From positions 56,199 through 120,198 of the forward strand of contig JAGOOG010000007.1 in the NCBI GenBank assembly GCA_017992605.1: a DNA stretch of 64,000 nucleotides. Direction: 5' to 3'. Every line of letters begins with the position of its first letter. Position 1 is the first letter of the stretch. Made by a program: the position numbers and the translations under genes. The stretch is from Deltaproteobacteria bacterium. Its GTDB lineage: Bacteria > Desulfobacterota > Desulfomonilia > UBA1062. Below the pieces are notes generated by a model, which was not told the origin of the DNA, searched no databases, and was given only the letters and a program-made list of their open reading frames with translations. Below, piece after piece: positions 18,477 through 29,944 of the stretch.

Positions 18477-18899
18477 AGGAGAATCCGGCACGGCGCCGCC
18501 CTGCCGGCCGAGAAGACCCTCAAGGCGCAGGGGATCCCCCACAAGATCGTGCCCGAACCCAAGCATATCAGCCCGGACTGCGGTGTGTGCATACGTGTCG
18601 ATGACGAGCACCTGAAACGGGCGGGGAAGGCACTCGACGGCACGGTGAAGGTCCTGGATATCCGGATGATACCCTCGGGGACCAAAGGGGAACTCTTTCT
18701 CCGCGACCCTGAATCTCGTATCATCATTCCAATGGGGCCGAGTCGATGGTATGATATGACGATCACGAAGAATCGGGACTGGTCTCATGGGGTCGCGGGA
18801 GACAGACCATGGGACGGCAAGGGCAATGCCGACATGGCAGCGATGCACTTCACCAGGGTATATTCGATAGAAAGGAGACGGTATGAAGAAAGTCAATGA
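18477..18899 (+). pseudogene. DUF3343 (putative Se/S carrier-like) gene remnant
   Basis: The frame opens right after a stop at 18474 and reads HGAALPAEKTLKAQGIPHKIVPEP, then ISPDCGVCIRV, which matches the core of DUF3343 proteins (a helix, the P-x-P loop, then SxxCG). The first strand and a start codon are missing, and the frame runs on past the normal domain end into the next gene. DUF3343 proteins have been linked to selenium or sulphur handling and are common in selenium-using anaerobes. Loss of the N-terminus next to the 18383 hairpin suggests a deletion. A GTG at 18549 could still give a partial product. Confidence 0.5.
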
Positions 18900-21600: not shown

Positions 21601-21632
21601 AGGCCCCCGGAAGCCGGAACTCCCGGGGGCCT
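21601..21632 (-). terminator. Bidirectional intrinsic terminator
   Basis: A 10-bp perfect GC-rich stem (21601-21610 with 21623-21632) with T-rich sequence on both exits: a TTTTTT shortly after on the plus strand, TTTCCC on the minus strand. It lies just after the minus-strand selenoprotein gene, which it probably terminates. The rest of the interval from 21316 shows no gene. Confidence 0.75.
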
Positions 21633-21648
21633 GATGATTTTTTACGGC

Positions 21649-21963
21649 TCAGCAGCTGGTACAGCCGCCGCAGTCTGTGGATTTCTTCATGCCCGTGTTG
21701 ATGACGAACCCCTCACCCCGTGGCGTGATGACATAATCCACAGTGATGGGCTTCGCCTCGTCGAGGAGTTTCTTCTCGACGACGAACGTGAACCCGTTGT
21801 TCTCGAACACCTCGTCGTTCTCGTTTGACTCGTCCAGAGCCATCCCCAGCTGGGGACCGCCTCAGCCTATGCCTGAGATGAAGATGCGCAGGGGCTCCAC
21901 CTTCTCCCTGTTCTTGAAGAACTCTCCGACCATTTCGGACGCCTTTTCCGTGACGTTGAACAT
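21649..21963 (-). CDS. HesB/IscA-like selenoprotein with in-frame UGA (selenocysteine 34)
   Basis: Reading through a UGA at 21864-21862 gives a 104-residue HesB/IscA-like protein: N-terminal MFNVTEKASEMVGEFF, then LRIFISGIG-U-GGPQLGMALDE, where U sits exactly at the first conserved Cys of IscA (normally GxGCGG). The other two A-type Cys are at the end, CGGCTSC. Both sides of the UGA match the family without frameshift, and AAGGAG precedes the ATG. The stretch after the UGA contains a small hairpin that could serve as a SECIS element. HesB-like selenoproteins are known in selenium-using anaerobes; a cytoplasmic Fe-S or redox role is inferred. A conventional gene caller would report only the part from 21843. 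Confidence 0.88.
21844..21855 (-). promoter_or_regulatory. Candidate bacterial SECIS hairpin
   Basis: Immediately 3' of the selenocysteine UGA on the minus strand, after a 6-base spacer, CCCC-AGCT-GGGG forms a 4-bp GC stem, extended by one A-U and one G-U pair, with a G in the loop. Bacterial SECIS elements are hairpins within about 40 bases of the UGA with a G near the loop start. This one is short and close to the UGA, and a larger alternative fold using downstream sequence is possible. Confidence 0.5.
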
Positions 21964-22249
21964 CAGGTACTCTCCTTTGCAGGTTTAATGTCTTTCTTGC
22001 ATGTATCGGCTCATTCTATACCTTCAACGAATGGTTTCGCCAACCGTCTTTTTCCACTGCACTGGACCAGGCATCCCGGCAGCAATTCGTGGCCGAGGAG
22101 AGGACAGGGTTTTCGTCTCCCATCGTTACCTGTGTGACTCGAGAAAAACCCCTGTACGGCTCGCTGTGATGGTACGACACGCAGAAAGGATTCTCCGGTG
22201 AACGGGAGACGGTCCATGTATGCTGCTGCAGCCCTGAATGCCTCCGGTA

Positions 22250-28258: not shown

Positions 28259-29944
28259 ATGGGCTTTGACAGGATCTGGCACAAGAACTATCCGAAGGCC
28301 GTACCGAAAGAGATCACCTTTGACCGCATCACCATGCCCGAGGTGCTGACCCGGACGGCAAAGCGTTTCCCGGACAAGGCGGGCCTCAACTACATGGGCA
28401 AGCTTATCAGCTACGAGAAGCTGGACCGCATGGTGAACGTGTTCGCCAGGGCGCTGACGGGGCTCGGCGTGAAGAAGGGCGATACGGTTGCCATGCTGCT
28501 GCCCAACATACCCCAGGTGGTCATCGCCAACTACGCCACCTGGCGCATCGGCGCCGTCGCAGCCCAGAACAACCCGCTGTATACCGAGCGCGAGCTCGCC
28601 TACCAGCTGAACGACTCCGATGCGAAGGTGCTCATAACCCTCGACCTCCTGCTGCCGAGGGCCATCAAGATCAAGCCTGAAACGAAGATAGAGCACATCG
28701 TGACCTGCCACATCAACGACTACCTCCCCTTTCCCAAGAAGCAGCTCTTCCCGCTCGTGAAGAAGCAGATGTACCGCAAGGTGGAGCCGGGCCGCGATGT
28801 ATTGCGGTTCACCGACCTCATGGCGCGGTACGATGACTCGCCCGTGGCGCCCGAGGCGGCCTGGGACGACGTGGGAACGCTCATCTACACGGGCGGCACC
28901 ACCGGGGTGAGCAAGGGCGTCATGCTCACGCACGCGAACATGTCCTGCAACGTGCAGCAGCTCAAGGCCTGGTTCTACGACGTCATTGACGGCCAGGGGA
29001 GCATCATGGCCATCTTCCCGTTCTTCCACTCTGCCGGGTTCACGGGCATCCAGAACTTCACGGTCTGGGGCGGGTGGACCGATGTCCTGGTACCGAGACC
29101 CGAGCCGTCGGTGATCATCGAGCTGCTGAAGAAGTACAGGCCCGAGTTCATGCCCGGGGTGCCGACCATCTTCATCGGCCTGCTCAACAACGAGGAGTTC
29201 CGGAAGATGGACCTGCGCTTCATCAAGGGCTTCATAGCCGGTGCCGCACCGCTGTCCGTGGAGACCATCAACGAACTGAAGAACCTGACCGGCGGCGACC
29301 TCATCAATGTCTACGGCCTCACCGAGACGTCGCCCATGGGTACCGCATCGCCCTGGAAGGGCGACATCAAGCCGGGTACCGTGGGTGTGCCGTTTTCGAG
29401 CACCGACCTGAAGATCATGGACGTGGAGACCGGCACGGTGGAGATGAAGGTTGGAGAATCAGGCGAGATCTGCTTCAAGGGGCCGCAGGTCATGAAAGGG
29501 TACTACAAGAAGCCCGAGGAGACCGACAAGGTTCTCAGGGACGGCTGGCTCTTCACCGGGGACATCGGTGTCCTTGGCGAGGACGGCTACCTCACCATCG
29601 TGGACCGCAAGAAGGACATGATAGTGGCTGCCGGCTACAACATCTTCCCCCAGGAGATCGACGAGATCCTTTTCTCGCACCCCAAGGTGCTCGAGGCCTG
29701 CACCATCGGCGTCCCGGACTCGTACCGGGGCGAGGCGCCCAAGGCCTTCGTGGTGCCCAAACCCGGGGAGGCCATTGACAAGGAAGAGCTGGTGGCCTTC
29801 TGCAGGGAGAAGCTCGCTGCCTACAAGGTGCCCAGTCACATAGAGTTCATGACCGAGCTCCCGAAGAGTGCGGTGGGCAAGATCCTGCGCAAGGAGCTGC
29901 GGGACCTGGACAGGAAGAACAAGAAGAAGGATGGTGCCGTCTAG
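28259..29944 (+). CDS. Long-chain fatty acid-CoA ligase (AMP-forming)
   Basis: A 561-residue ANL enzyme with the P-loop TLIYTGGTTGVSKGVMLTH, A5 motif NVYGLTETSPMG, A7 WLFTGDIGVLGEDGYLTIVDRKKDMIV and the A10 lysine in PKSAVGKILRKEL. Size and motifs match the FadD class. It activates fatty acids for degradation or lipid synthesis. GAGGGGGG precedes the ATG. With the 605-residue ligase at 22682 this gives two different acyl-CoA ligases within 8 kb, plus crotonase genes, pointing to fatty-acid catabolism. Confidence 0.93.
   Translation: MGFDRIWHKNYPKAVPKEITFDRITMPEVLTRTAKRFPDKAGLNYMGKLISYEKLDRMVNVFARALTGLGVKKGDTVAMLLPNIPQVVIANYATWRIGAVAAQNNPLYTERELAYQLNDSDAKVLITLDLLLPRAIKIKPETKIEHIVTCHINDYLPFPKKQLFPLVKKQMYRKVEPGRDVLRFTDLMARYDDSPVAPEAAWDDVGTLIYTGGTTGVSKGVMLTHANMSCNVQQLKAWFYDVIDGQGSIMAIFPFFHSAGFTGIQNFTVWGGWTDVLVPRPEPSVIIELLKKYRPEFMPGVPTIFIGLLNNEEFRKMDLRFIKGFIAGAAPLSVETINELKNLTGGDLINVYGLTETSPMGTASPWKGDIKPGTVGVPFSSTDLKIMDVETGTVEMKVGESGEICFKGPQVMKGYYKKPEETDKVLRDGWLFTGDIGVLGEDGYLTIVDRKKDMIVAAGYNIFPQEIDEILFSHPKVLEACTIGVPDSYRGEAPKAFVVPKPGEAIDKEELVAFCREKLAAYKVPSHIEFMTELPKSAVGKILRKELRDLDRKNKKKDGAV

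Follow-up and report, generated by a model that had tools for sequence, protein, structure and literature searches.

An in-frame UGA, very likely read as selenocysteine, in a HesB-like gene of a deltaproteobacterial draft genome

The stretch of deltaproteobacterial DNA analyzed here (64,000 nucleotides; hereafter the window) carries on its minus strand, at 21649..21963, a HesB-like gene of the family NF038090 in which, we conclude with high confidence, an in-frame UGA is decoded as selenocysteine (Sec), probably by means of a conserved SECIS-type hairpin that lies 25 nt downstream. The gene has 104 codons and ends with a TGA stop at 21651-21649; the frame 21963-21649 contains a single internal TGA, at 21862..21864 (minus strand), likely encoding Sec34 at the position of the first conserved cysteine of A-type proteins. 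On re-reading, the coordinates, the TGA at 21864-21862, its SGIG-U-GGPQLG context and the 104-residue read-through product were all as the first-pass annotation had given them, and its expectation that the gene would be called truncated agrees with the table-11 list of open reading frames, where the sole entry in the hesB frame is a 64-residue ORF from the ATG at 21843. A likely ribosome-binding site, AAGGAG, judged from the sequence, lies at 21972..21977 (minus strand), 8 nt upstream of the ATG, and a promoter scan returned no promoter. Directly past the stop codon, a 14-pair GC hairpin followed by TTT (21601..21632, minus strand; folding energy -29.8 kcal/mol, z -4.3) forms a likely transcription terminator; it is absent from the list of a consensus terminator scan, probably because of the short T run. 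Given this strong GC hairpin and TTT just past its stop, the HesB-like gene probably ends its own transcript.

The read-through product matches NCBIfam NF038090 (IscA_HesB_Se) at 107.3 bits, over the curated cut-off of 85, along profile positions 1-100 of 101, and differs from that family by ordinary divergence only. With Pfam PF01521 (Fe-S_biosyn) it scores 24.3 bits, just below the gathering threshold of 26.3, and with TIGR01911 (HesB_rel_seleno) 47.2 bits, below the cut-off of 66.35; it is likewise under the cut-offs of TIGR00049 and of the IscA, ErpA and SufA models, lying far under these last three equivalogs. The nearest solved relatives by sequence are AQ_1857, HI1723 and E. coli IscA (yfhF), and the UGA codon aligns with their conserved GCSG cysteine. 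An AlphaFold2 model (pLDDT 84.2, pTM 0.68, from a 38-row alignment; residues 99-104 below pLDDT 50) matches IscA 1r94 best (TM 0.73), with 1x0g, which is IscA with a [2Fe-2S] cluster, also among its top PDB matches, so that the predicted fold is of the IscA type.

The C-terminal tail, DCGGCTSC, is a CxxCxxC arrangement of C98, C101 and C104; among 38 aligned relatives, chosen from the 68 distinct rows described below, conservation reaches at least 90% at C98 and C104 but not at C101. The earlier proposal that Sec replaces the first of three cysteines while the other two are kept as CTSC therefore holds for the first cysteine, whereas CTSC is an approximate description of a tail in which C101 is not conserved. 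The tail motif of IscA is CxC. Compared with the A-type carriers IscA, ErpA and SufA, the product is alike in predicted fold and in the position of the first ligand, and differs in having Sec for the first cysteine and CxxCxxC instead of CxC. It is probably an A-type carrier of Fe-S clusters or metal; counting against an Fe-S function are the tail without the CxC of IscA, the low pLDDT of that tail in the model (below 50), and an unpublished observation, quoted in a passage of PMC11097638, that nitrogen fixation was unimpaired in an M. maripaludis hesB-like disruption mutant.

What is decisive for the Sec reading is a silent-site constraint in the UGA copies of the gene that the Cys copies do not share. 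Relatives were taken as every stop-to-stop frame of at least 60 residues scoring above 100 against the window protein, from three sets of 30, 30 and 4 loci (the best-scoring loci, not a random sample), and the resulting 77 rows were reduced to 68 by dropping those that share the same 150 bases around the codon. In these distinct relatives the codon at the UGA position is TGA in 58 and Cys in 10. Similarly, one TGA occurs in 35 of the 41 NF038090 matches listed for the 24 genomes of the family and none in the other six, while among the 21 matches over the NF038090 cut-off 18 contain one TGA; its position was read only for those matches fetched as loci. One in-frame TGA is also found in most phylum rows among the matches listed.

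Eight codons past the UGA, alanine is encoded by GCT in all 57 UGA copies that have Ala there (the one remaining row carries TCT, for Ser) and by GCC in all nine Cys copies that do (the tenth has Thr), a split with a Fisher p of 2.7e-11 when related rows are treated as independent. The next leucine is CTG in 53 of 53 UGA copies, five further rows having Gln, as against 4 of 10 Cys copies (Fisher p 3e-6, likewise treating related rows as independent). At other positions of the UGA genes, GCT accounts for 36 of the 311 Ala codons, and thinning to 45 UGA rows of less than 85% nucleotide identity leaves 44 with GCT and one with TCT.

The constrained GCT codon sits inside a hairpin at 21826..21842 (minus strand), TGGCTC-TGGAC-GAGTCA, whose stem has six pairs, one of them G-U, and which is likely the SECIS, as pair conservation suggests. 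Numbered from the T of the TGA, the core pairs 24-38, 25-37, 26-36, 27-35 and 28-34 are formed in 57/57 distinct UGA copies and the outer pair 23-39 in 54/57, with a loop starting TGGA or AGGA in 56/57. In the Cys copies, pair 27-35 is formed in 0/10 and pair 25-37 in 3/10, pairs 24-38, 26-36 and 28-34 are formed in 9/10, 9/10 and 8/10, and the loop is TGGAT or TGGAC in 5/10, so the contrast between the two groups rests on two pairs and codon choice. Mean hairpin energy is -9.0 across the 57 UGA copies vs. -4.35 across the 10 Cys copies. A short consensus, GGCTC-WGGAY-GAGYC, describes the UGA copies read with few exceptions.

We checked the published bSECISearch constraints by hand. The bacterial SECIS model, as set out in a 2026 review (PMC13188914), has a loop of 3-9 nt, a stem of 4-16 pairs, a G within the first two positions of the loop, a UGA-to-loop distance of 16-37 nt and an energy of -7.5 kcal/mol or lower. 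The candidate, with its loop TGGAC, G at loop position 2 and a UGA-to-loop spacing of 25 nt, agrees with this description in loop, stem, loop G and spacing; the isolated hairpin, at -6.6 kcal/mol (z -3.4), misses the energy limit of -7.5 kcal/mol. Rfam gave zero matches at gathering within the 64-kb window, and near the hesB gene chance-level matches only.

Nearer the UGA lies a GC-rich hairpin, CCCCAGCTGGGG (21842..21857, minus strand), which is strong in the window sequence and is favored over the SECIS candidate by the naked RNA fold. We rejected it as the SECIS: it is unconserved, since one of its pairs is present in 57/57 UGA copies but the others in 12 to 46. The first-pass annotation had reported that a hairpin follows the UGA, which is correct as far as it goes, but the strong GC hairpin is the unconserved one and the conserved hairpin is the next, TGGCTC-TGGAC-GAGTCA.

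The host genome, a draft of 2.71 Mb in 63 contigs (98.5% complete), was searched for the Sec machinery, as had been proposed. The search for selB, selC and selD succeeded, all three scoring over their family cut-offs: SelB at 329.4 (cut-off 242.25) in an open frame of 635 aa, SelD at 373.2 (cut-off 125), which itself has an in-frame TGA, in HGAG-U-ACK, and tRNA-Sec (selC) at 72.6 bits (gathering 47), the sole match of 12 to exceed the threshold. Neither of two family models, TIGR00474 and PF03841, detected SelA in this draft. At the selD locus (L017, G000:C24:130880-131806), the TGA is followed by a hairpin of 8 pairs with a GGT loop (-12.9 kcal/mol), which differs in sequence from the hesB hairpin.

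Within the family, selA is present in 17 of 24 genomes (13 of the 16 of good quality), and in the phylum sample in 359 of 395 (305 of the 328 of good quality). Three drafts, all at least 98% complete, have no detected selA yet carry hesB copies with an internal TGA: the host (G000), G400 and G251. In two same-genus genomes (G402 and G272), selA stands between a divergent gene of ~300 residues and one which we take to encode a patatin from its GGGGVRG motif. The divergent neighbor had zero matches in the host genome, in a search without a positive control; the best match of the second neighbor there is only 41% identical, a figure with no yardstick for true orthologues; and a DNA stretch of the same-genus selA region gave one 43-base match. 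Because a block of genes is absent (selA together with its ~300-aa neighbor), a gap in the draft fits better than the loss of a single gene, and the missing selA is likely such a gap.

The same absences would also be expected if the genome had lost SelA and its Sec decoding were decaying, with the HesB-like gene a recent relic here: SelA and the divergent 300-aa neighbor are both missing, the other neighbor's best match is 41% identical, and the family genomes G400 and G251 (at least 98% complete) are also without SelA. We give this account a slim chance, as SelB has a full-length open frame, the score of tRNA-Sec is high, SelD retains its UGA and the hesB hairpin is intact, while an absent gene block in a draft of 63 contigs fits a gap. 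The points that weigh against Sec decoding are that SelA was not found, that the hairpin energy falls short of the limit and that the naked fold prefers the GC hairpin; a further one is that, of the five core pairs, three still form in 8 or 9 of the 10 Cys copies.

The missing SelA would also be in keeping with a UGA that truly ends translation or that stems from a sequencing error, leaving either a pseudogene or a functional 64-residue piece from 21843. An ORF of that length does open at the ATG at 21843, and 17 of 32 database relatives are 63-65 residues long, the length to be expected of pieces that begin past the UGA. The same TGA, however, recurs in 58 of 68 distinct relatives from many families, the segment upstream of it is conserved and open among the aligned relatives, and the hairpin is under a silent-site constraint not shared by the Cys copies, all of which makes a stop or an error very improbable. 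The database entries read were two short and 13 longer ones (P0032 and P0033 left out); nine of the 13 have Cys at the UGA position (P0002-P0009, P0012) and four, all metagenome proteins, have Trp (P0019, P0020, P0021, P0025). Readthrough as another residue, e.g., Trp, without selenium, would suit these four entries but is barely credible, since they probably come from gene calling under a genetic code that assigns TGA to Trp, the 10 rows without UGA among the 68 all carry Cys and none Trp, and tRNA-Sec and SelB are present.

We therefore return to the Sec reading, and consider it very likely that the UGA at 21864-21862 is read as selenocysteine with the help of the conserved downstream RNA hairpin. 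The proposal of a HesB-like selenoprotein is thus borne out by an NF038090 score over the cut-off, a UGA at a Cys position, the silent-site constraint and the presence of selC, selB and selD in the genome. With a ribosome stopped at the UGA, the dozen bases that follow would be covered, which would block the GC hairpin and leave the SECIS free to form, and SelB with Sec-tRNA would bind the hairpin 21842-21826, as hairpin conservation and the presence of SelB suggest. For the 104-residue product an IscA-type fold is predicted, which would place Sec34 at the first ligand cysteine of IscA and add a flexible CxxCxxC tail; Sec and the tail cysteines may then bind an Fe-S cluster or metal and, by analogy with A-type carriers, pass it on.

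The nearest named records are MAG contigs of Thermodesulfobacteriota/Deltaproteobacteria (L096 and L097 at 88 and 89% identity, L098 at 73%, L099 at 53%), and plasmid relatives comprise 20 records, all below 60% identity. UGA and Cys copies of hesB stand side by side in nine loci (L021, L022, L023, L030, L043, L047, L048, L067, and L075). On a tree of the 68 rows (106 columns), the Cys copies need five changes, at least three of them forced by starred branches; those three may be one gain and two losses, and the Cys copies likely have more than one origin. The host genome has one NF038090 match and is without a Cys twin. As this profile, at the same threshold, has matches in 8 of 14 control genomes, E. 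coli included, HesB-Sec may be the only A-type protein of the host genome, insofar as NF038090 detects them.

The hesB gene is flanked on one side by an AMP-binding ligase and an 82-aa protein without a Pfam match, and on the other by a dienelactone hydrolase, a thioesterase and an enoyl-CoA hydratase; no operon partner was found among these neighbors. Within the genus, part of the arrangement around hesB recurs: side and strand agree with those in the window for the 707-aa protein and the thioesterase in L096, and for three genes in L098, namely those of the 82-aa protein and the enoyl-CoA hydratase and the gene at 28259. The neighbor comparison covered 14 loci, several being overlapping pieces of one genome, and in the loci of other genera (flanks of ~1.5 kb) found no window neighbor except DUF3343.

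A tblastn search of the window, L019-L048 and L066-L099 placed DUF3343 beside hesB in two loci. In these two relatives of different genera, DUF3343 lies tail to tail with hesB-Sec, less than 150 nt apart (L068, DUF3343 at 1152-1376 on the plus strand and hesB-Sec at 1495-1806 on the minus strand; L069, DUF3343 at 1076-1342 on the plus strand and hesB-Sec at 1489-1800 on the minus strand). Two loci are too few to claim a link between hesB and DUF3343, which has been proposed as a Se or S trafficking protein in a text that does not mention HesB (PMC5322559). The window has its own, distant DUF3343-like frame at 18495-18899 (plus strand), which scores 19.3 with Pfam PF11823 (gathering 25) and shares 50% identity with the DUF3343 gene of L068 across 60 residues; the frame seemingly lacks the N-terminal strand and the start codon, and an in-frame TGA upstream of it is probably there by chance. 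A bolder reading, speculative and with a small chance of being right, would make HesB-Sec a selenium-gated A-type carrier working with the Se/S carrier DUF3343 (PF11823), the neighboring Cys twin serving as a low-selenium substitute in several lineages. In the host genome, where HesB-Sec is the only A-type protein detected by the family profile, cluster delivery would then depend on selenium.

Selenium in such proteins had been described as expected rather than new, and HesB-like is indeed already a listed selenoprotein family in PMC1794560 and PMC13188914. The 2006 tally, as given there, counted 11 HesB-like selenoproteins and two Sec-to-Cys events, naming Geobacter sulfurreducens, Desulfovibrio, Syntrophobacter and others, and a SECIS-like structure was shown for a Cys HesB-like protein too (PMC1794560). 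Set beside those proteins by their description in that source, the window gene is alike in encoding Sec in a HesB-like protein of anaerobic deltaproteobacteria, and the U-G-G-P of its product fits the motif UxGP listed for HesB-like proteins in the 2026 review (PMC13188914). The HesB-like selenoprotein of M. maripaludis, identified through mutagenesis and selenium-75 labeling, is similar in containing Sec and in being distantly related to IscA, according to a passage of PMC11097638 that cites the original work. It differs in that the reviews file HesB-like proteins under TIGR01911, where the window protein scores 47.2 against a cut-off of 66.35, and in that archaeal SECIS elements are described as being of another type (PMC13188914).

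On the sequence evidence, the HesB-like gene appears to be a well-supported selenoprotein gene of a known family, ordinary for its group, with its SECIS located and the bases of that hairpin constrained. It adds support for a further selenoprotein gene whose entry in the databases begins past the UGA, and for this gene and its relatives many entries consist of that downstream piece alone. A constraint on silent sites that holds in UGA copies and is unshared by Cys copies offers a clean test for Sec genes from sequence, and the consensus GGCTC-WGGAY-GAGYC could find further such genes.
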